A program made the translations under genes and the position numbers. The notes under the pieces were generated by a model. It saw only the letters and a program-made list of their open reading frames with translations, ran no database searches and was not told the origin of the DNA. From contig JACKLW010000005.1 of the NCBI GenBank assembly GCA_024235715.1, positions 124,001 through 188,000 of the forward strand: 64,000 nucleotides of DNA, written 5' to 3'. Origin of the DNA: Accumulibacter sp. (GTDB taxonomy: Bacteria; Pseudomonadota; Gammaproteobacteria; Burkholderiales; Rhodocyclaceae). This document shows positions 1,490-56,505 of this stretch, in pieces. Every line of letters begins with the position of its first letter. The first letter of the stretch is position 1.

Positions 1490-1680
1490 AGTGTGATTGT
1501 CGGACGCCCCAGCACTGCTGGCGCGAGTATCTACCCATGTTGCACGGTTAGTCAATCGGAATTTCTCGCCCGCCTCCACACAGTCAATCAAGTGCCCGAG
1601 AACGGCGGCGGCGACCGGCAGCGCTCCACTCTCGTACGGGAAACTGCCGAGCCGTTGCGCTGGCCCAGCGCTTGCGACAA

Positions 1681-8343: not shown

Positions 8344-9677
8344 GCCTGAGCATCGACAGCATCCGCGAATGCCTCGACGGCGTCATCCCCGGCCTGATCG
8401 CCACTTGCGACGCCGACGGTGTGCCGAACATGGCGTATCTGTCACAGGTACAGTTCGTCGACCGCGAGCACGTGGCGTTGTCTTACCAGTTCTTCAACAA
8501 GACCAGGCAGAACGTGCTGGTCAACCCGACCGTACGCCTGCTGCTGACCAGCCATCTCACCGCTTGTCAGTACCGCCTCAGCTTGCGCTACCTGCGCACC
8601 GAAACCGCCGGCCCGCTGTTCGAGCAAATGAAGGCCAAGCTCGCCGGCATCGCCTCGCACACGGGCATGAGCGGCGTCTTCAAGCTGCTCGGCTCCGACG
8701 TCTATCGTATCCTGGCCATCGAGCAGGTGCCGGGACGGACTCTGCCGCGGGCAACGCCAGCGGTGAATTACCTCACCGCATTGCGCCGCTGCAGCATTCG
8801 CCTGGGCGGCTGCGAACACCTGGAAAGCCTGCTGGATACCGCGGGCGACTGCCTGGGCTCGGAATTCGGCATCCAGCACCTGATGCTGCTGATGTACGAC
8901 GAGGCCGGACAGCGGCTATACACGCTGGCCAGCCGCGGCTATCCGGACTCCGGAATCGGTTCGGAGATCCCGGTGGGTGCGGGCGTGATCGGCGTCTGTG
9001 CCCGCGAGCGCACACCCATTCGTATCGGCTACACGACGGCAGAATACGCCTACGGACGGGCGATCCGCGACAGCGCGGCAGCCAGCGGCCTCGCTGCCTC
9101 TCTCGAGACTGCCATTGCGCTGCCCGGCCTGCCGGAGGCCGCCAGCCAGCTGGCGGTGCCGATCACCGCTTTCGGTCGCCTGCTGGGCGTCCTCTACGTT
9201 GAAAGTTCCGCCGACCTTCATTTTGGCTACGACGACGAGGACGCCCTGGTCGCCTTCGCCGCGCAACTCGGCATGGCCATCGACCATCACCGGCAGGTGG
9301 CCGAAACGGCGGAGGAAGCCGCTGCTGCCGAACCGGGTTCCGCCAAGCCCGCCGGCAAGACACTCGGCGTCCGTCATTTCGCCGCCAACGACAGCATTTT
9401 CCTCGACGACGATTACCTGATCAAGGGTGTCGCCGGGGCGATTCTCTGGACACTGGTCACGGATTACGCCGAGCGCGGGCGCACCGCCTTCAGCAACAAG
9501 GAATTGCGCGTCGATCCGCGTATCCGCCTGCCCGGCGCAAGCGATAACCTCGAAGCGCGCCTGGTCCTGCTGCGACGGCGACTCGATGAACGCGGTGCCG
9601 GCATCTCGTTGGCCAAGACCGGACGCGGCCGCTTTGTGCTGCGCGTCGAGCAACCGCTGCAGCTGATAGCGGGCTGA
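8340..9677 (+). CDS. PNPOx-like domain / GAF domain fusion with C-terminal winged-helix-like region
   Basis: A 445-residue protein. Residues about 10-140 are a split-barrel flavin-type domain (LIATCDADGVPNMAYLSQV, FFNKTRQNVLVNP). Residues about 150-325 are a GAF sensor domain (GAGVIGVCARERTPIRIG, VPITAFGRLLGVLYVE). A short Ala/Pro linker leads to a C-terminal 75-residue region with FSNKELRVDPRIRLP and LEARLVLLRRRLDE that looks like a winged helix. The start is TTG at 8340, overlapping the upstream stop, with GGGAG in front. It may be a redox- or ligand-sensing regulator for which the PNPOx domain is the sensor; that is inference. Confidence 0.72.
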   Translation: MSLSIDSIRECLDGVIPGLIATCDADGVPNMAYLSQVQFVDREHVALSYQFFNKTRQNVLVNPTVRLLLTSHLTACQYRLSLRYLRTETAGPLFEQMKAKLAGIASHTGMSGVFKLLGSDVYRILAIEQVPGRTLPRATPAVNYLTALRRCSIRLGGCEHLESLLDTAGDCLGSEFGIQHLMLLMYDEAGQRLYTLASRGYPDSGIGSEIPVGAGVIGVCARERTPIRIGYTTAEYAYGRAIRDSAAASGLAASLETAIALPGLPEAASQLAVPITAFGRLLGVLYVESSADLHFGYDDEDALVAFAAQLGMAIDHHRQVAETAEEAAAAEPGSAKPAGKTLGVRHFAANDSIFLDDDYLIKGVAGAILWTLVTDYAERGRTAFSNKELRVDPRIRLPGASDNLEARLVLLRRRLDERGAGISLAKTGRGRFVLRVEQPLQLIAG

Positions 9678-9846
9678 AAAGGGCGCCCATTTCCACCTTG
9701 CGTCGACGGGTCGATTGGCGCCTGCCTGTTCAACAAAAGTATCCGGCCACGACAAGCGACGCCGCAACGGCGTCCATCCCCCGCAGCGGCGCGCTGCGTG
9801 GCCACTTTCTTAAATCTTTCCTCACGGCTTACTAAGAGTTTCGTAA
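9678..9846. other. Intergenic region left of the insertion sequence
   Basis: No gene is seen between the GAF-domain gene and the insertion sequence. Before the insertion this DNA was continuous with the region upstream of the dehydrogenase gene at 11434. The last four bases are the left copy of the target duplication. Confidence 0.6.
9843..9846. repeat. Target-site duplication, left copy (GTAA)
   Basis: GTAA abuts the outer end of the left terminal repeat and is repeated at 11356-11359 outside the right terminal repeat. Four base pairs is the duplication size I associate with IS701-type elements. An identical duplication implies that the element and its flanks have not been rearranged since insertion. 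Confidence 0.8.
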
Positions 9847-9863
9847 TTCTACTTTGTCAGATT
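9847..9863. repeat. IS left terminal inverted repeat
   Basis: This is the 17-base repeat TTCTACTTTGTCAGATT. Read on the minus strand, its TGA (9859-9857) is the transposase stop codon. The match to the right end stops exactly at base 17. Confidence 0.93.
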
Positions 9864-11143
9864 GCATTGCAGTTTGATGCGGAAAGCATTTCTTGTTGTC
9901 GTCGGTAGGCTGAATCCATGGCGCGGCGTCGCCGTGTATGCCTATTGGCGATGGACGCAGCCAAGTCTTCGTCGGTGACGATTTTCAGGGGTAGCTTGTG
10001 GCGCATAATCTCGACCAGATCGCGACAGGAGAGCAGATCGGCAGTATCGCGATGTGCCAGTCGCTCTTTGGCGAGGAACATTGTCGCGATCATTACCAGC
10101 GCCATGTGATGGTGCCACGCCTGCCAGCGCCGCACCTGATAGTCGGCCATGCCGCAAGCACTCTTGGCATCCTCGAAGGAGCGCTCGACGAAATGGCGCG
10201 CGGCTTGCATTTCCGCGAGACGGCGCAAGGAAGCGCCAGGCTTGGTATTGGACAAACAGAACTTGAGTGTCGTCCCGTCCATTTCCCGGCGGACCAGAAG
10301 GTGCCAGCGATGCGCCGAAGGCGACTTGCCGTCCCATACCCAGACCCGTTGGGTGAGGTAATCGGCGATCACTTCGCCTTTCTCACCGCCCCTGATCGAC
10401 AACCGGCGCCATTGCGCTGCCGGCTGAGCGGCCGCCCAAGCAGCCACCGACGCTGGAGAGGCGTCGGTGCGCAGTCGGCTGGGCGCTCGACCCTTCGAAG
10501 AGCCGCTATCCGGTATCGCAGGCGCCGGGTCGTCGAGAAAGATGGCCTGATCCGAATGAACCTCGGCCAGGAAGGTTTCCCTCTCACCGTCCAGTTCCCG
10601 GAGGAGCCAAGGCAGATGCCCGTAACCGCCATCGAAAGCCACGAAGGAGAAGCGCAGGCCGTCCCGTCGCAAGCGCCGCACCAGTTCCAGCGCGATCTCG
10701 CCCTTTGTGCGGAACGCCCGTCTATCCTCTGGCACCCCGGCGGCCTCGCAGCGAGCAGCGTCGTTGCTCCACGCGCTCGGCAGATACAGCTCGGTATCCA
10801 CCAGCGAGGCCACGCCGTCGCGCGCAACGGCTGCAAACACACCGACCTGGCAGTTATCGGTCTTGCCGAGGCGCCCGTTCCACTGCCGGGCGACCCCTGC
10901 CGACAGCTCGCCCTTCTTGGCAAAGCCACTCTCGTCGATGAGCAAGCCACTGGCATAGCCAAAATGATCATTGGCATCGGCGACCAGTTGCCGTCGCACC
11001 TCACGGCGATCCCAATGCGATTCACTCAGCATGTGATGCAGCTGCTGGTAGCCGCTCTCGGCCACGGTTTCGGCCATACATTCCATGTTGCGGCGCGAAC
11101 TTTGGAACAGGCCATGCAGATACTGGCGCGCCGCGTTCTCCAC
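9857..11143 (-). CDS. IS701-family DDE transposase
   Basis: At least 428 residues. The RNase-H-fold acidic residues are visible as Asp in LLIDESGFAKKG, Asp in FVAFDGGYGHLPW and Glu in HFVERSFEDAKSACGM, along with the family's VARQWNGRLGKTDNCQVGV signature. The GTG at 11143 is not the natural start. The same frame is open for 38 more codons (to a TGA at 11260) and encodes FAPYLRCFQSRTRSVENAAR-like residues typical of IS701 transposase N-termini. No ATG, GTG or TTG exists in that extension; the best candidates are ATT at 11230 or a CTG downstream. A well-placed ATG at 11261 is out of frame and ends at 11232. Confidence 0.9.
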   Translation of the reverse strand: MENAARQYLHGLFQSSRRNMECMAETVAESGYQQLHHMLSESHWDRREVRRQLVADANDHFGYASGLLIDESGFAKKGELSAGVARQWNGRLGKTDNCQVGVFAAVARDGVASLVDTELYLPSAWSNDAARCEAAGVPEDRRAFRTKGEIALELVRRLRRDGLRFSFVAFDGGYGHLPWLLRELDGERETFLAEVHSDQAIFLDDPAPAIPDSGSSKGRAPSRLRTDASPASVAAWAAAQPAAQWRRLSIRGGEKGEVIADYLTQRVWVWDGKSPSAHRWHLLVRREMDGTTLKFCLSNTKPGASLRRLAEMQAARHFVERSFEDAKSACGMADYQVRRWQAWHHHMALVMIATMFLAKERLAHRDTADLLSCRDLVEIMRHKLPLKIVTDEDLAASIANRHTRRRRAMDSAYRRQQEMLSASNCNAI

Positions 11144-43457: not shown

Positions 43458-44609
43458 ATGGCCTTGAGTTTCGAGGAGTTGAACAGACCGATTCGGCATC
43501 TATTGCTGGTCGATGACGAGGCGAGCATCCTGCGCTCCCTGCAACGAATGCTTCGCCGCGAAGGCTATGTCATCCATGCCGCGGCAAGCGGCGAGGAAGG
43601 ACTGGCCGTGCTCGAAAAGGAACCGATAGGGGTGATCGTCACCGACCAGCGCATGCCGGGCATGACGGGTTCGCAGTTCCTGAGCAAGGTCAAGGAAAAA
43701 TATCCGGACACGATTCGCATCGTCCTGTCGGGCTACACCGAATTGAACTCGATCACCGATGCCATCAATCGCGGCGCGATCTACAAGTTCCTGACCAAGC
43801 CGTGGGACGACGGCCTGCTCCGCGAACAGCTTGCCGATGCCTTCGCTCACTACGAGCTGAAGAACCAGAACACGCGGGTGTCTGCTCTGAACAGGGCGAT
43901 CATCGACGCCATCCCGGACGCCCTGCTGCTGGTCGACACAAGTGCGCGCCTGGTGACCGTCGCCAATGCCGCAGCCGCCACCCTGCTCGGCTACGACCCC
44001 GGCGCACTGGCCGGCAAGGCGATCGGCGATATCGAGCCGCTGCCGCTCGACCAGTTTTATTGGGACGAGATTTCCACTGGCAGCTTCCGGGCGCTACACG
44101 CAGTCGAAACCGAATACCGGCATAGCGATGGCAGCCTGCTACCGGTACGCAAGTCGACCTCGAACGCCGGCGACGAGCCGTGCCAGTCCGTGCTCGTGCT
44201 GGCGCAGGACCTTCGCCACGAGCGGACCATCGAGTCTTCCCTCGAGCGACTGAACGAAGAGATGGCGGCGGTGCTGGAGGCGACATCGGAGGGCTTGCTG
44301 GTCCTGGACGCCACGCGCAGCCTGTCGCGACTCAATCGGCGGCTGAACGAAACCTGGTCGCTACCGCAAGAACTGGTTGCAGCGGCTGGCGGCGAGCCGA
44401 TCCTGCGCTGGATTGCAGCGCAGGCAACGGCGCCCGCCGAGACGACGGAGGCGCTCTTCGCACATTTCCTGGCGCCGGAGACCCTCACCTACGGCACTTT
44501 CCAGCGCGGGAGCGAAACCTGCCTGTGGCACGCCCACCCACAGCTCCGTAACGGTGAGCTCATCGGCCACATCTTCTGCTTCGCCGTCTCGCCGGGAAAG
44601 ACCGGCTGA
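43458..44609 (+). CDS. Response regulator with PAS domains (REC-PAS-PAS)
   Basis: A 383-residue protein. The receiver domain spans residues about 14-130 with acidic pair Asp19-Asp20, phospho-acceptor Asp63 (VIVTDQRMPGM), Ser91 and Lys114 (FLTKPW); its sequence resembles receivers of RpfG-type proteins. A PAS domain follows at about 145-260 (IIDAIPDALLLVDTSARLV) and a second PAS-like region at about 270-380 (VLEATSEGLLVLDATRSLS). There is no kinase, GGDEF or DNA-binding output, so it probably acts through protein contacts. It is convergent with an HD-GYP gene, leaving 23 bases between stops. Confidence 0.8.
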   Translation: MALSFEELNRPIRHLLLVDDEASILRSLQRMLRREGYVIHAAASGEEGLAVLEKEPIGVIVTDQRMPGMTGSQFLSKVKEKYPDTIRIVLSGYTELNSITDAINRGAIYKFLTKPWDDGLLREQLADAFAHYELKNQNTRVSALNRAIIDAIPDALLLVDTSARLVTVANAAAATLLGYDPGALAGKAIGDIEPLPLDQFYWDEISTGSFRALHAVETEYRHSDGSLLPVRKSTSNAGDEPCQSVLVLAQDLRHERTIESSLERLNEEMAAVLEATSEGLLVLDATRSLSRLNRRLNETWSLPQELVAAAGGEPILRWIAAQATAPAETTEALFAHFLAPETLTYGTFQRGSETCLWHAHPQLRNGELIGHIFCFAVSPGKTG

Positions 44610-44632: not shown

Positions 44633-45892
44633 CTAGCCGGTGCGCATGTCCTCGCCGAAGTAGTACGCGACCCGTTTTCTCGGGCTCAGATATTCGTACA
44701 CGGCGGGAGCCAGCGTGCTTGCGCGCAAGGCCTTGCTGATGTTGATCCCGGGGGTCTTCTCGAGGTCAAGGATCAGCGCCTCCGCCTTCGGGATCGCCGC
44801 ATCGTACACCAGCAGCATCGGCTGCAAAGGGCGTCCCGAATTGACCGAAATCACGATCGCCGTCGCCCCGCTGGAAAGCTGCACGATGCTCCCCGGCGGG
44901 TACACGCCGAGGACGCGCACCAGTTTCGCAAGCATGGCCGCGTCAAACCAGTTCCGCCTTGTGGCGAACATCGTCGACAGCGCCTCGTAGGGAGTTGTCG
45001 CGGCGACAGCATTACCCGGATTGCACAGGTGGTCATAGTGATTGACGATGGCGATGACCCGCGCCACCTGGCCGATCTGCTCGCCCGCCAGTTGATTGGG
45101 ATAACCGCTGCCGTCGAGATGCTCGTGATGCTGCAGGATGGCGACGGCGACCGCTTTCGGCAAACCGTGGCGCAGCGCCAGCCTGGCGCCGATTTCGCAA
45201 TGGTCGTGCAGCAGATGCTCTTCGGCAGGTGTCAGTACTTCACCCGTCAGGCGAAGCGTGGATGGCAGCTGAGCCATGCCGAGATCGTGAAAGATGGCCG
45301 CCACCCCGATCGTCCGCAGAGTCTCGGCCTCGACGCCAACGGCCTTGCCAAGGATCAGTGCCAGCACGGCAACGTTCAGCGAGTGATGGTAAACCTCGCC
45401 GTCCGGATCCTTCTCACCGAGCAGATGAACCATCATCTCGCTGTTGTCGAGCAGCGACTCGGCTATCCCGGCAACCAGGTCGTTGGCCTGCGCGATCGCC
45501 TTGCCCGGCTCGGCAGAGAATTTCCCGGTCGCCTGCCGGACGAGCCGCACCGCCTTCGCCGCCTGCTTTTCGGCATTGGCGATATTGCGGCGCAGAGCAC
45601 GGCTGTGCTCGATACGGATGTCCTTTTCGGTCGGCGGCACGACGACGGGCGCGGCATCGGGCACGACCGGCAGCTGCGACGCCGGCTGCCCAGGCATGGC
45701 CCGCGGCGCCAGGCCACGCGCGGGATCGATACGGACCTTGTCGAGTCCGAGGCTACGCAGGGTCGCCAGTTGCTCCTCGCTCTGAATCACGAAGCTGCTG
45801 AAACTGAAGGGGTGCTGCAGCCACGACAGCTCGAGGACCACGAACATGCCGAGGGCAAGCTGTGCCGGTTCAACGTATACCGTGTCTTCCAT
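44633..45892 (-). CDS. HD-GYP phosphodiesterase with DUF3391 N-terminal domain
   Basis: A 419-residue protein. Residues about 1-100 resemble DUF3391 (VEPAQLALGMFVVLELSW). The HD-GYP domain at about 140-330 has HHSLNV (His169-170), FHDLG (His202-Asp203) and HHEHLDGSGYP (about 255-265), the full signature needed for c-di-GMP hydrolysis to GMP. The C-terminal 90 residues include a PilZ-unlike beta-rich segment (PPGSIVQLSSGATAIVI). ATG 45892 is the family-like start, with a weak Shine-Dalgarno sequence. It is divergent from the sensor-kinase cluster. Confidence 0.88.
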   Translation of the reverse strand: MEDTVYVEPAQLALGMFVVLELSWLQHPFSFSSFVIQSEEQLATLRSLGLDKVRIDPARGLAPRAMPGQPASQLPVVPDAAPVVVPPTEKDIRIEHSRALRRNIANAEKQAAKAVRLVRQATGKFSAEPGKAIAQANDLVAGIAESLLDNSEMMVHLLGEKDPDGEVYHHSLNVAVLALILGKAVGVEAETLRTIGVAAIFHDLGMAQLPSTLRLTGEVLTPAEEHLLHDHCEIGARLALRHGLPKAVAVAILQHHEHLDGSGYPNQLAGEQIGQVARVIAIVNHYDHLCNPGNAVAATTPYEALSTMFATRRNWFDAAMLAKLVRVLGVYPPGSIVQLSSGATAIVISVNSGRPLQPMLLVYDAAIPKAEALILDLEKTPGINISKALRASTLAPAVYEYLSPRKRVAYYFGEDMRTG

Positions 45893-46302
45893 GCCGAGCG
45901 ACCCCCGATTCGAATCTGGGCAGACGATACTCCGTCGCGTCCCGACTGGCAAAACGATTGCCGCTGGCGTGGCCACGGGGCCGCCCGGCGGCAAGGCCTC
46001 GACGACGCGTCGCAGCAGGTCCGGAATGGGTTAGAGTATCGCGTTAAAGAGCAGAACGCTGCTCGGCAAGGACGCAGGTAACCTGGCGATTGCCGACATG
46101 CGGCTCGTCCGCCAAAGCACCAGGCTGCAACAGCGTCCGGGAGGAAGCTACCAATGCCGCGCTTTTCTTGGGCCAACAGCGAAAGAGACATTCCCGGATC
46201 ATTGCCGCGGCCACTGATCATGACTCATTGCAGGGCTGGCGGCGAACTCGGACGCGGCAGCAGCGCTGCGGTCGCCCCCACGGCCACCCCGAGACTGCTC
46301 GA
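45893..46302. other. Divergent 410-bp region between the HD-GYP gene and the sensor kinase cluster
   Basis: A 6-bp hairpin GAGCAG-AACG-CTGCTC lies at 46049-46064 without a T-run. An open frame from 46090 runs into the small membrane protein, but the part before about 46303 reads as Arg/Gly/Gln-rich non-protein. The segment must contain promoters for both directions; none stood out. Confidence 0.4.
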
Positions 46303-46569
46303 GTGAGTGCGTGCCGACCGGCCGTGGTGAGCCGAAAGCCACGTCCCCTTGCCGACCCGGTGCTGCAAGTCGCACTGACCTGGGTGAGCGCGGTTCTCCT
46401 CGGCTGGCCAGCCATACAGATTGCCGGCGCGCACGGCACGGCAGCCGTGTTCCTCTACGTATTCGTCATCTGGAGTGGTCTGATAGCCGCGCTTTTTGGC
46501 GTCTCGCGGAGCCTGCAGCGCAAATGGCCATCGACGCACAAGGACGAAGACCAGGACGGCAAGCGCTAG
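46303..46569 (+). CDS. Small two-helix membrane protein preceding the symporter-kinase
   Basis: About 88 residues with helices around LQVALTWVSAVLLGWPAIQI and FLYVFVIWSGLIAALFGV and a charged C-terminus (KWPSTHKDEDQDGK). The start is uncertain: GTG at 46303 is used here, with GTG at 46324 or 46327 as alternatives, none with a strong Shine-Dalgarno sequence. Its TAG overlaps the GTG of the kinase gene (TAGTG), so the two are translationally coupled. Solute:sodium symporters such as ActP are often encoded after small two-helix proteins; an accessory-subunit role is an inference from that parallel. Confidence 0.6.
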   Translation: MSACRPAVVSRKPRPLADPVLQVALTWVSAVLLGWPAIQIAGAHGTAAVFLYVFVIWSGLIAALFGVSRSLQRKWPSTHKDEDQDGKR

Positions 46570-49500
46570 TGGGCGAGGGACACTTTTCACCATTCTGGCT
46601 GCTGGCGGCCGTCGTGACCTATGTGGGCATTCTGCTGGCTGCCGGTTGGTGGGCCGAGCGCCGCGCACGGCACGGCGCCGGTGTGGCCGGCCACGCCTGG
46701 GTCTACGCCCTGTCGCTGACCGTCTACTGCACCTCGTGGACCTACTTTGGCAGCGTCGGCAGCGCAGCCAGCAGCGGCATGCTCTATGCCAGCATCTATC
46801 TGGGCCCGACACTGGTCATGCTGGCCGCCTGGGAAGTGGTACGGCGCATGATCCGCCTGCGCCAACGCTATCGCTTTTCCAGTGTGGTGGACTTGATCAC
46901 CCAGCGCTACGGACAGTCGCTGAGCATGGGTGCGTTCGTCACCCTGGTGCTGTTGGTGGGAATGGTGCCCTATATCGGTCTGCAGCTGCGCGCGCTGGTC
47001 GAATCGTTCGCGGTGATCACCGGCATGGTTCACGATCCTGAACAGGCAACTCTCTGGCGCTACTCCGACGAGTTGATGCTGCTGCTGGTGGGCGTGCTCA
47101 CCGGCATCTTCGGGTTGCGCCGGGTCGATACCCGCGAGCGGCAGCACGGCCTGATGGCGGTGCTGGCCGTGGAAGCCGTGATCAAGCTGGCAGCATTCAC
47201 TGCGGTCGGCGCCTTCGTCGCCTGGGGCGTATTTGACGGCTTTGGCGATCTCTGGGCCCGCCTGCAGGCCGACCCGGCGCTGCGGCTGCGCTTCGTGGAT
47301 GCACCGCTGACGGGTAATGCCTATGTGACCTGGATGACCTATTTCGTGCTGTCGATGGCGGCGATAATCTTCCTGCCGCGGATGTTTCACGTGCTGGTCG
47401 TGGGCAATCACGATGAGCGGCATTTGCTCACCGCGATGTGGGTATTTCCGCTCTACCTGCTGATGATGTCGTTCTTCGTGCTGCCGATCGCAGTCGGCGG
47501 ACTGCTCCTCGGATACCCTCTGGCATCCGCCGACTGGCTGGTCATTCGACTGCCCTTCGACCATGGCAGTCCCGCGTTGACGCTGCTGGCCTACCTTGGC
47601 GGCTTGTCGGCAGCGGTCGGGATGGTCATGGTTGCCTGCACGACGATGGCCATCATGTTCTCCAACCACATCGTGCTGCCCCTGGTCGACCGTACGGCGA
47701 TCGGCCAGCATCTGCGCCGCGGCTTGCGGCCGATCCGCTGGGCAGTGGTCTTCCTGATGCTCGCGGCCGCCTACCGCTTCCAGGGTGGTCTGGCAGACAG
47801 CTACCTGCTGATCCAGATGGGCCTGATCTCGTTCGCCGCGGTACTGCAGCTCGTCCCGGCCGGAATCGGCGGCCTGTACTGGACGCGCGGCAACAAGCTC
47901 GGCGCCTGGTGGGGGCTTGCGCTGGGCTGGGCAATCTGGGCTTACACCCTGTTGCTGCCCGCGATCGTGCGTAGTGGCGCTGGCGACGTCGAGTGGCTCC
48001 TCGGCGGACCATGGGGGGTGCAATTCCTGCGCCCGGAAGCGCTGTTTGGCCTCGATCTCGGCTCGCCGTACGCGAACACCGTCTTCTGGACACTGCTGTT
48101 CAACGTCTCCGGCTACGTCGTTGCTTCGCTGCTACGCCAGCAGAGCGACGAGGAAGCGACGCTGGCACACGCCTACACCCACCCCTTCGGCGAGCATCGC
48201 CTCTCCGGCGGCGCCGGCGCCGGCACATTGCGCATCAGCTACGCGCAGCTACGCCAGCAGATCGACGCGCTGTTTTCCCGCTATCTGCCGGCGAACGAAG
48301 CGAAACTGGCCATCGAGCGTGTACAGCGTGATGTGCTTCCGGACAGCAACAACGGTTTGTCGGCCGCCGCCTATCTCGAGTTGACCGCGCGCGCGGAGCG
48401 GATACTGGCCGGAACGATCGGCGCGGCCATGGCCCGCAGGGCTGCGAGCGAAGCCATGCGTCTCAGCGACACGGAGACCGCGGGCCTGCATGACACCCTC
48501 GCCAGGCAGCTGGCCGAACTGCATATCACCCCACAGCAACTGCGCGAGCAGGTCGACTACTTCCGCTCGCTGCAGGAGATCAGCCAGTCGCACGCGCAAG
48601 CGATGGCGCAGCAGATTGCCGCGCTCGAGACAGCGGCCAGGGAACGCGATCTGGCTGACGCCGGTCGCCGCGAAAGCGAGCTGCGTTTCCGCTCACTCGC
48701 CGACAACGCGCCAGTGATGATCTGGATGAGCGACAGCGCCGATGGCGAAAGCTATTTCAATCGCGCATGGATGACCTTTGCCGGGCTGGCCGGCAGCGAA
48801 GGCACGCAGTGCACGCGCGAACGCTGGCTCGAGAGCATTCATCCCGACGACCGCGTTGAGGCACTGGCCCTGATTGGCACGGCAGCGACACGGAAGGATG
48901 GCGCCCAACAGGTCTTCCGCTTCCGGCGGGCCGACGGCGAGTATCGCCACCTCCGGATGCATGTCCTGGCGCGCCGCGGCGCCGATGGCGCCGTCCTCGG
49001 CATCGTTGGCTCTGCGGTCGACATATCCGACCTGCTCGCCGCTGAACGGACACTGCGGCGCAGCAACGACGACCTGGAAGCGCTGGTCAGCGAGCGGACC
49101 AGGGCGTTGCAGCGATCCTACGCAGATCTGGAGGAGCGGGAACAGACGATTCGCACCATCACCGACTCGGCACAGGACGCCGTGGTAATGGTCGACGATG
49201 CCGGCGTGGTGTCTTACTGGAACCCGGCAGCCGAGCGAATCTTCGGCTGGACGAGCGACGAGGCCCTGGGCCAGCTGCTCTCGGAGTTCCTGGTGCCCGA
49301 ACGGTTCCGTGCCGCGCACTTGCAGGCCTACGCGCGCTTCCAACAGGGCGAGCCGGGCAGGATACTCGGCAGGACCGTCGAAATGGTGGCGCTGAATCGG
49401 GCCGGCGCCGAGATTTCCGTCGATTTGTCTTTGTCATCGACTCTGCTGAAGGGCAAGCTGCACGCCATCGGCCTCCTCCGGGACATTACCGAGCGCAAGC

Positions 49501-50768
49501 TGGCGGCACATGCCCTGCTTCGCGAAAAGGCCTGGTCCGACGAGATCATCCGCCTGGCACCGAGCTTCATCATCGGTCTTGGCCGGTCCGCAGAAATCCT
49601 CCTGTTCAACGACTACGCCGAACGGCTGACCGGGTACGCGCGCGACGAGGTGATCGGCAAGCACTGGACCGAGGTCTTCTCGACTCCCGAGGGTCGCGAC
49701 GAGGACAGCGCCACCATCGACCATGCGCTGCAGAGCGGTGAGGCGATCCGCCACCAGCCGGAGAACGCGATAGTCATCCGCGGCGGCTCCCGGCGCCTGG
49801 TGAGCTGGAGCTCGCAGTTGATGTTCGAAAACGGCAAGGTCCGGATGCTTCTTTCCTTCGGCGTCGACGTTACCGAAAGTCGTCGTGCAGCGCGGGAGCT
49901 GGAAGACAACTACGCCAAGCTGACGCTGCTCAACCAGCGCCTCGAAGAAGCGCAGAACCAGCTGCTGCAGTCGGAGAAAATGGCCTCGATCGGCCAACTG
50001 GCCGCCGGTGTCGCGCACGAAATCAACAACCCGGTCGGCTTCGTCAGCTCCAACCTGCAGACACTGAAAACGTACAGCCAACAGATGCTGCAGTTGCTCG
50101 CCGCCTACCAGCTGGCTGAGCCGCGCATCGGCGACGACGAACTGGCGACGATTGCCGAGCTGAAACAGGCCCTGGACATCGACTTCCTGGAGGAAGACCT
50201 GCCGGCACTCATCAAGGAGAGCGAAGAGGGCCTGGTGCGGGTCAAGAAGATCGTCGCGGACCTGAAGGATTTCTCGCACGTCAGCGAAACCGACTGGCAG
50301 TATGCCGACCTCAATGCCGGACTCGACTCGACGCTCAACGTCGTCTGGAACGAAGTCAAGTACAAGGCGCGCGTGGAGAAGCGGTACGCCACACTCCCAC
50401 CCGTAAACTGCCTGGCCGCGCAGCTCAACCAGGTATTCATGAACCTGATCGTCAATGCGGCGCACGCACTTGACGAAAGCAAGGGCATGGGAACGATCGT
50501 GCTATCGACCGGTCAGCAGGACGAGTGGGTCTGGGTCGAAGTCAGGGACGACGGTCGCGGCATGAGCGAGGAAGTGCGGCGACGGGTGTTCGAGCCCTTC
50601 TTCACCACCAAGCCCGTGGGCAAAGGCACCGGACTCGGGATGTCCCTGTCGTACAATATCGTGAAAAAGCACAACGGTTGCATCGAAGTCGACTCGCTCC
50701 CCGGACAGGGCACAAGATTCAGAGTCTGGGTGCCCGTCAATCATGCCGAGCCTGAAGCTGTCGAATAG
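46569..50768 (+). CDS. Hybrid sodium:solute-symporter / PAS / sensor histidine kinase (CbrA-like)
   Basis: A 1399-residue protein. Residues about 1-530 are a 12-13-helix sodium:solute symporter domain (HAWVYALSLTVYCTSWTYFG, SSVVDLITQRYG). Residues about 555-690 are helical and may be a STAC-like linker (AERILAGTIGAAMARRAA). Three PAS domains follow at about 705-820, 860-975 and 990-1105. The dimerisation/His domain has His1150 in GQLAAGVAHEINNP, and the ATPase domain ends the protein (NLIVNAAHALDE, DDGRGMSEE, FFTTKPVGKGTGLGMSLSY). CbrA-type proteins sense nutrients through a transporter-like domain. No CbrB-like NtrC regulator follows; instead there is a lone receiver and a CheC-like gene. 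Confidence 0.9.
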   Translation: MGEGHFSPFWLLAAVVTYVGILLAAGWWAERRARHGAGVAGHAWVYALSLTVYCTSWTYFGSVGSAASSGMLYASIYLGPTLVMLAAWEVVRRMIRLRQRYRFSSVVDLITQRYGQSLSMGAFVTLVLLVGMVPYIGLQLRALVESFAVITGMVHDPEQATLWRYSDELMLLLVGVLTGIFGLRRVDTRERQHGLMAVLAVEAVIKLAAFTAVGAFVAWGVFDGFGDLWARLQADPALRLRFVDAPLTGNAYVTWMTYFVLSMAAIIFLPRMFHVLVVGNHDERHLLTAMWVFPLYLLMMSFFVLPIAVGGLLLGYPLASADWLVIRLPFDHGSPALTLLAYLGGLSAAVGMVMVACTTMAIMFSNHIVLPLVDRTAIGQHLRRGLRPIRWAVVFLMLAAAYRFQGGLADSYLLIQMGLISFAAVLQLVPAGIGGLYWTRGNKLGAWWGLALGWAIWAYTLLLPAIVRSGAGDVEWLLGGPWGVQFLRPEALFGLDLGSPYANTVFWTLLFNVSGYVVASLLRQQSDEEATLAHAYTHPFGEHRLSGGAGAGTLRISYAQLRQQIDALFSRYLPANEAKLAIERVQRDVLPDSNNGLSAAAYLELTARAERILAGTIGAAMARRAASEAMRLSDTETAGLHDTLARQLAELHITPQQLREQVDYFRSLQEISQSHAQAMAQQIAALETAARERDLADAGRRESELRFRSLADNAPVMIWMSDSADGESYFNRAWMTFAGLAGSEGTQCTRERWLESIHPDDRVEALALIGTAATRKDGAQQVFRFRRADGEYRHLRMHVLARRGADGAVLGIVGSAVDISDLLAAERTLRRSNDDLEALVSERTRALQRSYADLEEREQTIRTITDSAQDAVVMVDDAGVVSYWNPAAERIFGWTSDEALGQLLSEFLVPERFRAAHLQAYARFQQGEPGRILGRTVEMVALNRAGAEISVDLSLSSTLLKGKLHAIGLLRDITERKLAAHALLREKAWSDEIIRLAPSFIIGLGRSAEILLFNDYAERLTGYARDEVIGKHWTEVFSTPEGRDEDSATIDHALQSGEAIRHQPENAIVIRGGSRRLVSWSSQLMFENGKVRMLLSFGVDVTESRRAARELEDNYAKLTLLNQRLEEAQNQLLQSEKMASIGQLAAGVAHEINNPVGFVSSNLQTLKTYSQQMLQLLAAYQLAEPRIGDDELATIAELKQALDIDFLEEDLPALIKESEEGLVRVKKIVADLKDFSHVSETDWQYADLNAGLDSTLNVVWNEVKYKARVEKRYATLPPVNCLAAQLNQVFMNLIVNAAHALDESKGMGTIVLSTGQQDEWVWVEVRDDGRGMSEEVRRRVFEPFFTTKPVGKGTGLGMSLSYNIVKKHNGCIEVDSLPGQGTRFRVWVPVNHAEPEAVE

Positions 50769-50783
50769 CACGAGGAGAGGAAG

Positions 50784-51152
50784 ATGTCGGTTTCGGTTCT
50801 GGTCGTCGATAATTCGCCGATGGCCCGCAAAATGCTGGTTCGCGCACTGCCGCCGGATTGGGATATCACCATCACGCAAGCGTCCAGTGGCGCCGAAGCC
50901 TTGCTGCATTACCGGCAGGGAAAAGTCGATGTCATGTTTCTCGATCTGACGATGCCCGAGATGGATGGCTACCAGGTGCTCGAGGCGCTGCGACGCGAGG
51001 ATCTCAACTGTCTGGTCATCGTGGTGTCCGCGGATATCCAGGAAGCGGCGCAGGCGCGCGTCCTCGCCATGGGCGCCATCTCCTTCATCAAGAAACCGGT
51101 GGATCCCGAGCGCATCAGGGCGGTGCTCAAGGAATATGGGCTGCTGGTATGA
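50784..51152 (+). CDS. Single-domain response regulator (CheY-like)
   Basis: A 122-residue receiver with no output domain. Phospho-acceptor Asp54 (VMFLDLTMPEMDG) and the conserved Lys (FIKKPVDP) are present. The N-terminal acidic pair is Asp9-Asn10 (VVDNSP) instead of Asp-Asp, which may lower Mg2+ affinity or alter dephosphorylation. GAGGAGAGGAAG lies before ATG 50784. Its stop overlaps the CheC-like gene (ATGA). It is the likely shared phosphate acceptor of the two adjacent kinases. Confidence 0.9.
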   Translation: MSVSVLVVDNSPMARKMLVRALPPDWDITITQASSGAEALLHYRQGKVDVMFLDLTMPEMDGYQVLEALRREDLNCLVIVVSADIQEAAQARVLAMGAISFIKKPVDPERIRAVLKEYGLLV

Positions 51153-51760
51153 CTATGGAATTCATCAGCGACGACCAGCGCGATGCCCTGCAGGAAGTCG
51201 CGAACATCGGCATGGGACAGGCCGGCGCGTCGATTGCCAGGGTCCTCGGTGAGTTCGTCGAGCTCTCGGTGCCACGGATCAGCACCGTCGACGCGGCCGG
51301 GATACCCGCCGCCCTCGCCGCACTTGCGGGCGATGGCGTAGCTTCCGCCGTGCGTCAGGCTTTCATCGGCGAACTGCGGGGCGAAGCGATCGCGATCTTT
51401 TCCGAGCATTCGGCACATGATCTTGCCGAACTGCTTGCGTACGGAGATGCACTGGACGCTCCCGCCGGCTGCGAACTCCTGCTGGACATTGGCAATGTTC
51501 TCGTCGGCGCCTGTCTCGGTGGCATCGCAGGACTGCTGCGTACCGAAATCGGTTTCTCTGCGCCGTCCCTGCTTGCCGACCAGGTGGCGACCAGCGACCT
51601 GATTCAGGCGGAGACGATTGCCGCACGCTGCGCGTTGCTGGTGGAGGTGCGTTTCGGACTCGAGAAGCGGGTCTTCCGCTGCCACCTGGTGATGCTCATG
51701 CCCGAAGATGCGCTCGCCGCCTTGCGACGCGCGCTCGACCGCTTTATCGAGGAATTCTGA
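51149..51760 (+). CDS. CheC-type response-regulator phosphatase
   Basis: A 203-residue protein of the CheC/CheX/FliY family. Both active-site signatures are readable. The first is Asp12-x3-Glu16-x2-Asn19 with Pro42 exactly 22 residues after Asn19 (QEVANIGMGQAGASIA). The second is Glu109-x3-Asp113-x2-Asn116 with Pro139, having Asp in place of the catalytic Glu. CheC proteins dephosphorylate CheY-P by an Asn-mediated mechanism. It overlaps the CheY-like gene and abuts the kinase gene, so its substrate is most likely the adjacent receiver rather than a flagellar CheY. Confidence 0.85.
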   Translation: MTMEFISDDQRDALQEVANIGMGQAGASIARVLGEFVELSVPRISTVDAAGIPAALAALAGDGVASAVRQAFIGELRGEAIAIFSEHSAHDLAELLAYGDALDAPAGCELLLDIGNVLVGACLGGIAGLLRTEIGFSAPSLLADQVATSDLIQAETIAARCALLVEVRFGLEKRVFRCHLVMLMPEDALAALRRALDRFIEEF

Positions 51761-53083
51761 GTGACTTCGCTCAGCCACCCTGGCGAAAGCTGCGCGCTGC
51801 TCGGATCGCTCGTCGAGCGCATCGACGTGGGCATCTTCGCCGTCGATCGAACGGGCACGGTGGCGCTCTGGAACAGGTTCATGGCCGTCCACAGCGGCAA
51901 GTCGAGCAGCGAAATGCTCGGACAGAATCTTTTCGCCATGTTTCCGGAACTGCCGCGGCCGTGGCTCGAGAAGAAGCTGGAAAGCGTCTTCGTGCTCGGC
52001 AACAACGCCTTCACCCTGTGGGAGCTCAGACCATATCTGTTCCGCTTTCCACACAACCGGCCAATTACCGGCGGCCTGGACACGATGCGCCAGAATGTCA
52101 CCTTCCTGCCGCTGCGAACGCCGGGCGGCGAGGTGTCGCTGGTTTGCGGCACAGTCTTCGACTACACCGAGACGGCGCTTGCCCAGCACAGTCTGCATGA
52201 TGCAATTGCGGCGTTGAACAAGGAGAAGGACGCGCAAGCGCAGCTGATCGTCAAGCTCGAAGCAGCCCAGAACCAGTTGCTGCAGTCCGAAAAAATGGCT
52301 TCCATCGGCCAGCTTGCGGCGGGCGTGGCCCACGAAATCAACAACCCCATCGGCTTCGTCAATTCCAATCTGCAGACGCTCAAGAAGTACTGCGAGCAGA
52401 TGTTGCAGCTGATCTCGACCTACGAACCGACCGAGGCGCAGATCACCGACAGCGGGCTGCTGAGCAGGATCAGCAATCTGAAGCAGGCGCTGGACATCGA
52501 GTTCCTGCAGGAAGACCTGCCCGCGCTGATCAAGGAGAGCGAAGAGGGACTGGTGCGGATCAAGAAGATCGTCGAAGACCTGAAGGATTTCTCGCACGTC
52601 AACGAGTCGGAATGGCAGTACGCCGATATCAATGCCGGTCTGGACTCGACGCTCAACGTGGTATGGAACGAGGTCAAGTACAAGGCCACGGTCGACAAGC
52701 ACTACGGTGAGCTGCCTGCGATCGAGTGCCTCGCGGCGCAGCTCAATCAGGTGTTCATGAACCTGATCGTCAATGCCGTTCAGGCGCTCGACGAAAGCAA
52801 GGGCATGGGAACGATCACGCTATCCACCGGTCACCAGGACGAGTGGGTGTGGGTCGAAGTCAGGGACAACGGTCGCGGCATGAGCGACGAGACGCGCAGA
52901 AGGGTATTCGAGCCTTTCTTCACGACCAAGCCGGTGGGCAAGGGGACAGGACTTGGCATGTCCGTTTCGTACAACATCGTCCAGAAGCATCATGGTCGTA
53001 TCGAGCTCACGACGGCACCTGACGAGGGAAGCTGCTTCAGGGTGTGGGTGCCGGTGAAACAGGCGCAGGCGGCTGCGCCTTGA
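51761..53083 (+). CDS. PAS-domain sensor histidine kinase
   Basis: A 440-residue soluble kinase. A PAS domain occupies about residues 12-145 (LVERIDVGIFAVDRTGTVALWN), a short coiled coil leads to the His domain with His191 (GQLAAGVAHEINNP), and the ATPase domain completes it (NLIVNAVQALDE, DNGRGMSDE, PVGKGTGLGMSVSY). From LEAAQNQLLQSEKMASIG to the end it is nearly colinear and largely identical with residues about 1125-1395 of the symporter-kinase upstream. GTG 51761 directly follows the CheC stop. It has no membrane helix, so it senses a cytoplasmic signal or partner. Confidence 0.9.
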   Translation: MTSLSHPGESCALLGSLVERIDVGIFAVDRTGTVALWNRFMAVHSGKSSSEMLGQNLFAMFPELPRPWLEKKLESVFVLGNNAFTLWELRPYLFRFPHNRPITGGLDTMRQNVTFLPLRTPGGEVSLVCGTVFDYTETALAQHSLHDAIAALNKEKDAQAQLIVKLEAAQNQLLQSEKMASIGQLAAGVAHEINNPIGFVNSNLQTLKKYCEQMLQLISTYEPTEAQITDSGLLSRISNLKQALDIEFLQEDLPALIKESEEGLVRIKKIVEDLKDFSHVNESEWQYADINAGLDSTLNVVWNEVKYKATVDKHYGELPAIECLAAQLNQVFMNLIVNAVQALDESKGMGTITLSTGHQDEWVWVEVRDNGRGMSDETRRRVFEPFFTTKPVGKGTGLGMSVSYNIVQKHHGRIELTTAPDEGSCFRVWVPVKQAQAAAP

Positions 53084-53142: not shown

Positions 53143-56100
53143 TCATGACGCGCCCGCCCAGGGTTCAGGTTTGCCGAAGAAATAGCCCTGCGCGTAATCC
53201 ACCCCCAGTTCACACAGCCGGTCGACAGTTGCCTGGCTGCCAGCATATACGGCGACCGTCTCGATTCCCAGTGCGTGACCCATCTGATTGATCGCGGCGA
53301 CCAGGGCAGCGTCTGGCGGGCTATCGCACATCGCCTGCACGAAGCTGCCGTCGATCTTCAGATAGTCTATCGGCAGCGTCTTCAGGTAATGCAACGAGGA
53401 CAGGCCGCTGCCAAAATCGTCCAGCGCCAGACGACAACCTTGCCGCTTGAGCGCGGAAATCAGCGCCAGGGCCGGGCGAAGATTCTGGACGGCAACCGCT
53501 TCGGCAATTTCGAAACAGACTCGCTCGGATGGCAACGAGTGCTCGACCAGCTGACCGTCGATGAAATCGGGCAGACCTTCGTCGCCGAGCGCGCTGGCGG
53601 ACAGATTTATCGCCAGCATGGCGCCCGTCTGCCCTATCCCTCTCGCGTAGTCCCGACAAGCGCTGCGAATCACCCACCGATCAATGGCAGCCATGAGACC
53701 GTAGCGCTCGGCTGCCGGCAGGAACGCCGCCGGCAGCACCAGCTCGCCTCGTCGCGTTTCCTTGAAAGGCTGCGCGACACGCAACAAGGCCTCGTAGCGC
53801 ACCACGCGCAATGGCCGCTCTCCCGTCAAGGCAACGATCGCCTGGTAATGAAGCTGGAACAGGTCGTGCTCAAGAGCGTCCCGCAAGCCTGCCGCACCGA
53901 GAATCTGAGTGTGACGCGGAATGCTTTGGCTATCAGCCGCCTGATAGACGTGAACACGGTTGCGGCCGAGTTCCTTGGCCGTGTAGCAGGCCATGTCCGC
54001 CTGTGCGAGCAGCTGGGCCGCATCCTTCGTTTCCGCCGTAATCGGCACCAGGCCGATGCTGACGCCGATCTGATAGCTTCGCCCCTGCCAGACGAAACGG
54101 TGCTCGCGGATATTGCGCACCACCGCCTGCGCGATGACCTGGGCGCGCTCGAGCGGACAGTTCTCCTGCAGGAGCGCGAACTCGTCGCCGCCAATGCGTG
54201 CCAGGGTATCGCGCTCACGGAACATGCCGATCAGTATGCTGTTGATCTGTTTGAGCAACTCGTCACCGGCCGCATGTCCGGCAGCGTCGTTGACCGCCTT
54301 GAACTGATCCAGATCCAGGTAGCAGAGCACGTGTCTGGCAGCGTGCTGGTGAGCGCTGTCGAGTGCCCGCCCGAGTCGCCGCTCGAATTCGGGGCGGTTT
54401 ATCAGGCCGGTGAGTGCATCGTGAGTGGCGTCGTGCGCCAGCTGGCGAGTCAGCTGACGACTCTGGGTGACGTCGTGGAAAACGAGGACCGCGCCCAGGG
54501 TGGCTCCGTCCGGCCCGTTGATCGGCGCCGCCGAATCGTCGATGTCGAATTCCCGCTCGTCGCGCCGCAGCAGTACAGACCGACCGGGCAGGCTGACGAT
54601 ACGCCCTTCCTGCAGACAACGTCGCACCGGATCGGGGGCCGGCTCGCGAGTCTGCTCATTGACGATCCGAAAGACCTCCGCCACCGGCCTGCCTTTGGCA
54701 TCGGAGGTACTCCAGCCGGTCAACAGCTCGGCGACCGGGTTCATGTAGTCGACCCGGGCACTCGCATCGGTGGTGATCACCGCATCGCCGATCGAATGCA
54801 GGGTGACCAGTGCCCGCTCCTTGGCTTCGAACAGTGCCATTTCCGCTCGCTTCCGCTCTGTCGTTTCGATGCCGACCCCGATCAGTTCCTCCACCTGGCC
54901 ACTGCTGCTCCTGATCGGCGCCTTGATGATATGGAACCAGCGTTCCTCGCCACTCGAAGCCAGCCATCTGAGCTCACGCTCGACCCGCTTCAGCTGCCCG
55001 TTCCAGATCGACCGATCATCGTCGCGCAGGATTTCCAGGGTTTCGGCATCGGTCATGAAGTCCGGCAACGCCTGCCCGGTCATCTTCTCCACCGTCAGCC
55101 CGAAACTCTCGGCCAGGCTGCGGTTGGCAAGCCGAAGACGCGCCTGCCGGTCGACGACGAAAACGAAATGCGGATTGGCATCGATCACCGTTCTGAGAAA
55201 CGAACGTTGCTCTTCGATCTCCGCCTGCGCGCGCAACAGGCGCTCTACCAGCGCGACGTTTCCGAAACAGGCGGCGACGCTGGTCAGCAAGACGTCGACT
55301 AACGCCCTGTCCAGCGTCGCCGGCAGCTGTCCAGAATCGAGGAAGATCGCAGCTTCCTGGTGGCTGGTCGATGCCTGCAGGTAGAGCACCGTGTAGTCCT
55401 TGCCGAAAACGTGCTGGCGGCGCTGGAGACTGGCCATGACACGGGACAGCACGCGCTCGTCGGGCGGCAAGTGCAGTGGCTGCGCAAGACAAGCGGCGTG
55501 GCGACCCGTCGCAGCGAGTACGATGCAGTTCTCGGGGGCGGCACCGGACCTTGAACGATCCCGGATGAAGACGATTCCGTCCACCGCCCGCTTGAGCAGC
55601 ATCGCCAGTTGCGCGAGCACGCCCGCGGCGAGATCGGCAAGCGAGCGCTCTTCCATGAGCTCGGCGGCAGCCCGGACGATCGACTCGAGAGCACGCCGCT
55701 GCTCGCTGACGGCATGCAGCTGCCGATACGAACGCAGAGCCGTGCTAACCATGGTGATCAGGCGCGTGTGCGTCAGTTCGCCCTTGGTACGATAGTCGTT
55801 GATGTCGTATTGATCAACGACGGAGAGTTCAGGCGCGTAACCCGGCTCGCCCGTGCGCAGGATCAGGCGGCATTCGAGAAGACCCAGCTCGTCCCGGATA
55901 TAGCCGACGAGTTCGAGTCCGGCCTGCGCGGTCTCCATGACGACGTCGAGCAGCGCCACGGCGATGTCGGGATGTTGACGAAGCTGCTCCCGCGCTTCGA
56001 TGCCGCTGTAGGCGTGCAACAGCTGTATCGGCCGGCCGAAGACCTGCAACGCGTTGAGGACGAAACGGGTGACCTCATGCACCTCGATGTCGTCGTCAAC

Positions 56101-56190
56101 GACCAGCAGCTTCCATGGCGGCAGAGCTGCCGACGAAGGGGTGGCAGGCAAGTCCGTGTCGTCGGTCCAACTGAGCAACTCATCGTTCAT
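53143..56190 (-). CDS. REC-DUF3369-PAS-PAS-GGDEF-EAL signalling protein
   Basis: A 1015-residue protein. The receiver domain (residues about 27-150) has Asp32/Asp33 and phospho-acceptor Asp82 (VALLDVVMET). A DUF3369-like region follows (about 170-320), then PAS domains (about 335-450 and 460-580), a GGDEF domain with intact IGGDEF at 667-671 and an EAL domain with YEALLR at 800-802. EAL active-site residues NLSA, FEIAE, LDDFGSG, KIDGSF and QGYFF are present, but the AEGVE-type loop reads AVYAG, so phosphodiesterase activity is doubtful while diguanylate cyclase activity looks intact. ATG 56190 has GGAAGAGC upstream. It is convergent with the kinase at 53083. Confidence 0.9.
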   Translation of the reverse strand: MNDELLSWTDDTDLPATPSSAALPPWKLLVVDDDIEVHEVTRFVLNALQVFGRPIQLLHAYSGIEAREQLRQHPDIAVALLDVVMETAQAGLELVGYIRDELGLLECRLILRTGEPGYAPELSVVDQYDINDYRTKGELTHTRLITMVSTALRSYRQLHAVSEQRRALESIVRAAAELMEERSLADLAAGVLAQLAMLLKRAVDGIVFIRDRSRSGAAPENCIVLAATGRHAACLAQPLHLPPDERVLSRVMASLQRRQHVFGKDYTVLYLQASTSHQEAAIFLDSGQLPATLDRALVDVLLTSVAACFGNVALVERLLRAQAEIEEQRSFLRTVIDANPHFVFVVDRQARLRLANRSLAESFGLTVEKMTGQALPDFMTDAETLEILRDDDRSIWNGQLKRVERELRWLASSGEERWFHIIKAPIRSSSGQVEELIGVGIETTERKRAEMALFEAKERALVTLHSIGDAVITTDASARVDYMNPVAELLTGWSTSDAKGRPVAEVFRIVNEQTREPAPDPVRRCLQEGRIVSLPGRSVLLRRDEREFDIDDSAAPINGPDGATLGAVLVFHDVTQSRQLTRQLAHDATHDALTGLINRPEFERRLGRALDSAHQHAARHVLCYLDLDQFKAVNDAAGHAAGDELLKQINSILIGMFRERDTLARIGGDEFALLQENCPLERAQVIAQAVVRNIREHRFVWQGRSYQIGVSIGLVPITAETKDAAQLLAQADMACYTAKELGRNRVHVYQAADSQSIPRHTQILGAAGLRDALEHDLFQLHYQAIVALTGERPLRVVRYEALLRVAQPFKETRRGELVLPAAFLPAAERYGLMAAIDRWVIRSACRDYARGIGQTGAMLAINLSASALGDEGLPDFIDGQLVEHSLPSERVCFEIAEAVAVQNLRPALALISALKRQGCRLALDDFGSGLSSLHYLKTLPIDYLKIDGSFVQAMCDSPPDAALVAAINQMGHALGIETVAVYAGSQATVDRLCELGVDYAQGYFFGKPEPWAGAS

Positions 56191-56376
56191 GCGAGCTCTT
56201 CCACCGGAAATCGTGCGCGTACTTTCAGAAGCGCGATGAAGGTGGAGGCATGCCCCCTTCGGCCGGAGCATTGATCCAGATGCTTGCACCAAATCGCCTG
56301 ATGCCCCGATTATAAGCAATGTCGGAGCGACCGCCACTGTCACGGACAGGTCGCCTGGGGCACGCCGAGGCACAAT

Positions 56377-56399
56377 AAAAAACCGGCCCAGGGCCGGTT
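56377..56399 (-). terminator. Rho-independent terminator after tRNA-Pro
   Basis: On the minus strand, AACCGGC-CCAGG-GCCGGTT forms a 7-bp stem followed by a run of T. It lies about 30-50 bases after the tRNA and probably ends the long thrS-to-tRNA transcription unit. Confidence 0.85.
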
Positions 56400-56428
56400 C
56401 TTCGTTTGCTGCAGCTTTCTGATTTCTT

Positions 56429-56505
56429 TGGTCGGGGCGCCGGGATTCGAACTCGGGACCCCTTGCACCCCATGCAAGTGCGCTACCAGGCTGCGCCACG
56501 CCCCG
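56429..56505 (-). tRNA. tRNA-Pro (anticodon GGG)
   Basis: A 77-nt cloverleaf. The acceptor stem is CGGGGCG paired with CGCCCCG, with discriminator A and an encoded CCA. The D-arm region is GGCGCAGCCTGGTAGCGC, the anticodon stem CTTGC/GCAAG encloses ATGGGGT with anticodon GGG, and the T-arm contains GTTCGAATC. The C1-G72 pair is typical of bacterial tRNA-Pro. It follows the MerR-type gene, a frequent arrangement in betaproteobacteria. Confidence 0.96.

Follow-up and report, generated by a model that had tools for sequence, protein, structure and literature searches.

We analysed a five-gene locus in a 64,000-nucleotide stretch of an Accumulibacter sp. genome (GenBank assembly GCA_024235715.1, contig JACKLW010000005.1, positions 124,001 to 188,000 of the forward strand), hereafter called "the window". 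The locus encodes a small membrane protein, a membrane sensor kinase with an SLC5 region, a single-domain receiver (REC), a CheC-type protein and a soluble PAS histidine kinase (Table 1), and the analysis concerns the way in which the last three genes form a recurrent cassette with an exchangeable output, and the relationship of the first two genes to it. All five genes lie on the plus strand at the positions given in a preliminary description of the locus, and the tight coupling described there was confirmed at every junction. The genes for the small protein and the SLC5 kinase overlap by one base within TAGTG, a 15-base gap containing GAGGAG separates the SLC5 kinase gene from the receiver gene, the receiver and CheC genes overlap within ATGA, and the PAS kinase gene follows the CheC gene with zero gap. 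The small-protein gene and both kinase genes start with GTG. Comparison loci are labelled in the style of L002 or L045, and genomes in the style of G000 or G012.

Table 1. Genes and features of the locus, in window positions (aa, amino acid residues)
Feature	Position	Strand	Details
CbrX-like small membrane protein	46303..46569	+	88 aa; two hydrophobic stretches (hydropathy)
CbrA-like SLC5 membrane sensor kinase	46569..50768	+	1399 aa; SLC5 ~aa 1-500, PAS region ~aa 700-1115
SLC5 kinase, STAC-like region and kinase core	within 46569..50768	+	STAC-like region ~aa 550-640 (approximate boundaries); kinase core ~aa 1121-1399, His1150
Kinase core of SLC5 kinase	49929..50765	+	nested in the Accumulibacter cassette-kinase clade
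Single-domain receiver (REC)	50784..51152	+	122 aa; predicted phospho-acceptor Asp54, Ser82, Lys104; acidic pair Asp9-Asn10
CheC-type protein	51149..51760	+	203 aa
First CheC active-site motif	51182..51205	+	D12-x3-E16-x2-N19, intact
Second CheC site	51473..51496	+	E109-x3-D113-x2-N116, degenerate
Soluble PAS histidine kinase	51761..53083	+	440 aa; PAS ~aa 10-140, coil ~aa 140-180, core with His191

The gene identities of the preliminary description were upheld by Pfam and PDB matches, the symporter assignment through the structure 10ED discussed below. The 203-residue protein scores 26.0 bits against Pfam CheC (cut-off 22) and 49.3 bits against the NCBIfam model CheC_Thtogales, which is below the cut-off of 250. 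Its predicted structure, of modest confidence (predicted local distance difference test score, pLDDT, 59.8), finds T. maritima CheC as its best Foldseek match in the PDB (2f9z_A, E 5.1e-10, TM score 0.73). The 122-residue protein matches the REC domain with an E value of 2e-26; it is a plain receiver, and the only one in the operon. The active site of CheC follows the pattern D/S-x3-E-x2-N-x22-P, often in two copies, and the first site of the window protein fits this pattern from residue 12 through Pro42. Both kinases fell under the curated cut-off of the T2SS_HK family (NF038348; 340.3 and 348 bits, against 450).

Neither CheA, CheW nor a methyl-accepting chemotaxis protein is encoded by the operon or by the three flanking genes examined, and a chemotaxis reading of the locus was therefore rejected. 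The earlier statement that these partners are missing holds for this neighbourhood and does not extend to the genome, which contains six places with an MCP-signal domain and six with a CheW domain elsewhere. An NtrC-family regulator is likewise absent from the operon and the three flanking genes, as had been noted. The source genome contains only one CheC match, namely that of the locus itself.

Which of the five genes form the conserved unit? A search with the CheC protein gave six loci, five of them full-length (77-85% identity) and assigned to Candidatus Accumulibacter, and the sixth a fragment named Burkholderiales bacterium. With a CheC alignment, matches were obtained in 57 of the 297 genomes sampled in the family, 70 of 369 in the class and 109 of 398 in the phylum. 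We then defined a REC-CheC-PAS-output cassette as a CheC gene with REC directly upstream and a PAS-output gene directly downstream, an arrangement that the window locus has. The census comprised 130 rows representing 129 distinct places (L022 and L032 are one place), and included most places in the family and class; 10 weak places from one genus (g6), 8 other weak or partial places and CheC matches shorter than 150 residues, including that of G012, were left out.

REC lies directly upstream of CheC in 119 of the 130 rows (118 of the 129 distinct places), and a PAS protein directly downstream in 114; the 16 rows with no PAS call include one at a contig end. The output of these 114 PAS proteins is GGDEF in 75, GGDEF-EAL in 6 and a histidine kinase in 29, while 3 are unrecognised and 1 is cut by a contig end. 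The spacing is likewise tight, between -12 and +30 bases in 91 of the 119 REC-CheC pairs and in 109 of the 113 CheC-PAS pairs, as measured from the start codon nearest the upstream stop, a choice that favours tight values; in 27 of the 119 REC-bearing rows, REC and CheC form a single open frame. Each of the loci L002 to L006 carries REC, CheC and a PAS kinase. Because the REC-CheC-PAS order recurs in more than 100 loci, it did not arise by a chance reshuffling in a single genome, the outcome that the preliminary description had named as fatal to its own reading. Judged from gene order and recurrence, the conserved core is three genes: REC, the CheC-type protein and the PAS-output protein. A second cassette in the genome of L002 (L032, 9361-12414) is of the GGDEF type, and its CheC frame has only 152 residues.

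The phylum-wide reading covered the best-scoring 29 loci among the matches listed, 22 of them outside the window's class and 7 inside. All 7 inside loci have a GGDEF output, and the 22 outside loci have a kinase after PAS in 19, GGDEF in 1 and no PAS call in 2. Since the outside-class loci differ in both REC position and output, the cassette is not uniform, and its ancestral output may have been of either kind. In nine loci of one family outside the class (L213, L214, L217-L221, L226 and L229; family code f233), a single open frame after CheC holds PAS, kinase and REC, and there is no REC just upstream of CheC.

We next consider the exchange of the output. A joint REC+CheC+PAS tree was built from 108 of the 130 rows, namely those with a REC longer than 100 residues and a PAS; four of these are unlabelled for output, leaving 104 labelled rows. 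This tree contains eight changes between histidine kinase and GGDEF output, six of which are forced by well-supported branches (SH-aLRT, the Shimodaira-Hasegawa-like approximate likelihood ratio test). The window's clade has a support of 98 and holds 20 rows, 18 of the kinase type and 2 of the GGDEF type, every one of which comes from Accumulibacter or from the family code that the window carries; kinase rows are nested among GGDEF rows within it. Separate REC+CheC and PAS trees, each of 39 of the 108 rows, agree on the clearest case: the GGDEF-type L046 groups with the kinase-type L045 and L052 in both (support 96 and 94, respectively). The PAS domains of L046 and L045 are 72% identical, and their alignment spans the PAS and the coiled coil and breaks at the output, GGDEF in L046, indicating exchange at the level of the domain. 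A single direction of change, from GGDEF to kinase, is not claimed, because the trees are unrooted and 19 of the 22 loci outside the class are of the kinase type.

The residues on which a phospho-signal would depend are retained in nearly all rows. Among the 104 labelled rows, the phospho-acceptor Asp of the receiver is present in 103 and its Lys in all, and Glu16 and Asn19 of the first CheC site are likewise present in all; these two residues are also among the 13 invariant columns of a 14-row CheC alignment. The second CheC site retains an acid (Asp or Glu) in all 104 rows and Asn116 in 89. The receiver residues and the first CheC site are thus kept under both output types. Because of this conservation, the receiver likely has its own predicted phosphatase, with CheC resetting it, as the preliminary description had supposed. 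The acidic pocket of the window receiver reads Asp-Asn; the remaining 28 of the 29 kinase-type rows read Asp-Asp, and this replacement of the second Asp by Asn is unique among the kinase rows.

The two kinases of the locus are closely related to each other. Their cores are 70% identical over 317 residues, and in the kinase-core tree the three SLC5 cores (window, L002 and L005), which were identified there by position since the automatic label was "other", fall within the clade of Accumulibacter cassette kinases (10 rows, support 98), and the L041 cassette kinase branches outside them. By eye, the SLC5 cores also have the cassette-kinase helix after the phosphorylated histidine, and the other paralogues shown do not. 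We read this as an SLC5 sensor joined to a copy of the cassette kinase core. Since the cores are so closely related and that of the SLC5 kinase is nested among cassette kinases, the two kinases likely share a partner; this part of the earlier two-input proposal stands, as does the probable pairing of the receiver with a dedicated phosphatase. In L037 (G000:C14, ~740-1555, minus strand), one paralogue of the core has Gln at the position of the phospho-accepting His of the others.

The membrane part of the SLC5 kinase resembles that of CbrA. Residues 13-466 match PDB chain 10ed_A (E 3.3e-61), which PMC13022988 identifies as CbrXA SLC5-STAC; the paper also reports that CbrX was observed bound to CbrA. 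Pfam places the PAS matches and the kinase core C-terminal of this region and gives no match to the SSF family up to E 1, so the assignment as a symporter depends on the 10ED match. When the alignment is read against the same paper, Lys196 at the Na2 site of CbrA corresponds to Lys206, and four of the eight named binding-pocket residues (Y51, W55, Y75 and F406) are the same, while S53, A56, F71 and F248 are replaced by T, T, Y and S. With the Na2-site lysine and half of the named pocket retained, fold and coupling may be alike in the two proteins, and the ligand may differ. The STAC-like region and its counterpart in the other SLC5 kinase of the genome are 30% identical (E 1.8e-6); the predicted SLC5-STAC structure had a pLDDT of 36.5 and was not used. 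The 88-residue protein fits CbrX in position, size and its two hydrophobic stretches, and has counterparts in L002 and L005 (52% and 51% identity); a sequence search of the PDB gave no match up to E 10.

How firmly is this sensor tied to the cassette? SLC5 regions of the window type (74-100% identity) occur in 4 of 28 genomes of the genus, all among the 7 that carry the cassette (one-sided Fisher test, 0.0017, with relatedness and linkage ignored). In three of these four genomes (window, L002 and L005) the SLC5 kinase gene adjoins the cassette; in the fourth, G012, the SLC5 kinase and the cassette lie on contigs of 3823 and 3244 bases, too short to show adjacency. Among the six Accumulibacter loci for which about 7 kb of upstream sequence was read, the kinase is beside the cassette in the same three, and L003, L004 and L006 have no SLC5 match within that distance. 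Across the census, an SLC5 match besides that of the window was found in L002 and L005 only, in a set where 40 of the 130 loci are shorter than 5 kb and many have 1.5-2 kb upstream. The notion of one conserved five-gene circuit, implied by the preliminary description, is therefore rejected, given the missing SLC5 kinase in L003, L004 and L006; by its distribution, the membrane kinase with the CbrX-like hairpin is an add-on to the cassette and not its core. A second type of SLC5 kinase (37-42% identity to that of the window) is widespread, occurring in 27 of the 28 genomes. One such kinase in L034 (G000:C10, 5685-8972, minus strand; 921 residues, SLC5 region 41% identical) is followed by a lone 124-residue receiver.

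What might this arrangement do? We lean, by a small degree, toward reading the locus as a REC-CheC-PAS-output cassette joined to an add-on membrane nutrient sensor, which would work in the following manner. The phosphorylatable REC and the CheC-type phosphatase would set a short-lived phospho-signal, and this signal would act jointly with the third protein's PAS domain. The catalytic end of that protein appears to be exchangeable, being a histidine kinase here and GGDEF in the majority of the loci read within the window's class. The add-on sensor would comprise the CbrX-like hairpin, the SLC5, STAC-like and PAS regions and a copy of the cassette kinase core. In this way, input from a solute, whether bound or transported, would meet a PAS signal from the cytoplasm at one or more shared receivers, for which the operon's own REC, reset by CheC, is one candidate. 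Most likely, the two kinases have one or more target receivers in common, and the output enzyme is attached to a control part made up of REC, CheC and PAS; the adjacent REC may be either a substrate or a regulator of the kinases. A wider proposal, which we consider possible and advance with some reserve, is that REC-CheC-PAS represents an undescribed module of the Pseudomonadota, in which CheC-timed phosphorylation of REC would gate a PAS-coiled-coil protein with an exchangeable enzyme for cyclic di-GMP synthesis or kinase activity, and that a CbrA-like transceptor of Accumulibacter took a copy of the kinase core, wiring nutrient sensing into it.

Several observations weigh against the cassette with an add-on sensor as just outlined. 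The second CheC site is degenerate in the window protein. Among the 129 CheC loci, 11 have no adjacent REC call and 15 no adjacent PAS call; outside the class, 10 of the 22 loci lack a REC just upstream, 2 have an intervening second CheC, and in 11 PAS, kinase and REC share one open frame. The trees, including that of the kinase cores, were built by a quick method, with SH-aLRT support values, and carried long-branch warnings. By REC+CheC, L025 branches at the base of the window clade (support 88), and by PAS it lies among GGDEF rows; the cassette kinases do not form one clade in the core tree, which has six label changes, three of them forced, and places L059 among other paralogues. A simple cognate pairing of receiver and kinase also fits poorly with the helix patterns, compared by eye. 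The helix after the phosphorylated histidine usually sets the partner choice of a kinase. This helix varies between genera, and the first helix of the receiver is near-constant across the kinase and GGDEF cassettes of the window clade; the cassette REC as a tuned substrate of the cassette kinase is disfavoured for this reason.

The same evidence bears on the wiring closest to the preliminary description, in which both kinases phosphorylate the operon REC as their sole partner, CheC dephosphorylates it and phosphorylated REC acts on an unlinked target, the kinase being an input rather than an output. The lack of another receiver in the operon, the related kinase cores and the intact phospho-sites all suit it. 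However, REC and CheC are also kept where the third gene encodes a GGDEF protein and the cassette has no kinase, and since 81 of the 110 cassettes with a recognised output are of this kind, the receiver needs no adjacent kinase; together with the receiver helix that is nearly unchanged across outputs while the kinase helix varies, this leaves sole-partner wiring rather unlikely. We regard it as improbable that the CheC protein instead serves as a scaffold or binding partner responsive to phosphorylated REC, with its active site kept for binding: the degenerate second site would agree with such a role, and the CheC of B. subtilis binds CheD, an interaction strengthened by phosphorylated CheY (PMC3513319), but the Glu and Asn of the first site are invariant, as described above. 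Similarly doubtful is an SLC5 kinase that stands upstream by chance as an independent neighbour serving another regulator. Its absence from beside the cassette in three of the six Accumulibacter loci and the presence of other kinases near the cassette in L002, L004 and L005 speak for independence, whereas the 15-base gap, the adjacency in three genomes and the branching of its core among the cassette kinases speak for a connection.

To our knowledge, little function has been assigned to CheC proteins outside chemotaxis, and the recurrent cassette gives such a CheC a concrete set of partners and a testable role. As a natural pair that matches as far as the coiled coil and then differs in output, L045 (kinase) and L046 (GGDEF) lend themselves to asking whether one control module serves two outputs. 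The SLC5 kinase, in turn, suggests a route by which a transporter-sensor can be plugged into a pathway that already exists, namely through acquisition of a copy of that pathway's kinase core.

Around the operon, a protein with DUF3369, two PAS, GGDEF and EAL domains is encoded convergently just downstream (53143-56499, minus strand), and L002 also has a downstream GGDEF, 84% identical to the GGDEF of this protein. Upstream lie genes for a DUF3391 HD-GYP protein (44633-45922, minus strand) and a REC-PAS protein (43458-44609), relatives of which are found some kilobases upstream of the L004 cassette. In L005, the cassette is followed by a kinase with a hemerythrin domain and a core of the same family (8985-10490), and kinases with related cores also come after the cassette in L004 and L033.

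Finally, we compared the locus with known systems. Earlier work has described CheC phosphatases, SLC5/STAC kinases and the CbrX-CbrA pair; searches of an open-access library gave no description of the REC-CheC-PAS cassette or of its output exchange, which is weak evidence of novelty, as most subscription papers lay outside its scope. The window CheC resembles the chemotaxis phosphatases CheC, FliY and CheX in its predicted fold and first active site, but its second site is degenerate, and its gene stands beside those for REC and a PAS kinase (in relatives also a cyclase) rather than beside genes for CheA, CheW and receptors. Class II CheC was reportedly proposed by Muff and Ordal, in a 2008 review, to act outside chemotaxis, and the window CheC is likewise encoded outside a chemotaxis operon. 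CbrA has its NtrC-family partner CbrB encoded next door, unlike the window kinase, which has no NtrC-type regulator among the operon and three flanking genes. The SLC5 region is homologous to that of CbrA in the Pseudomonas CbrX-CbrA pair (PDB 10ED). CbrX is a small protein of two helices, and its gene overlaps that of the kinase (PMC6591292); the small-protein gene of the window overlaps its kinase gene in the same manner, although the window kinase has several PAS regions and a different kinase core. The CrbS/R and RpuS/R systems (PMC5715377 and PMC9100948) similarly use a sensor kinase fused to an SLC5 domain, from which the window kinase differs in that its core is of the cassette type.

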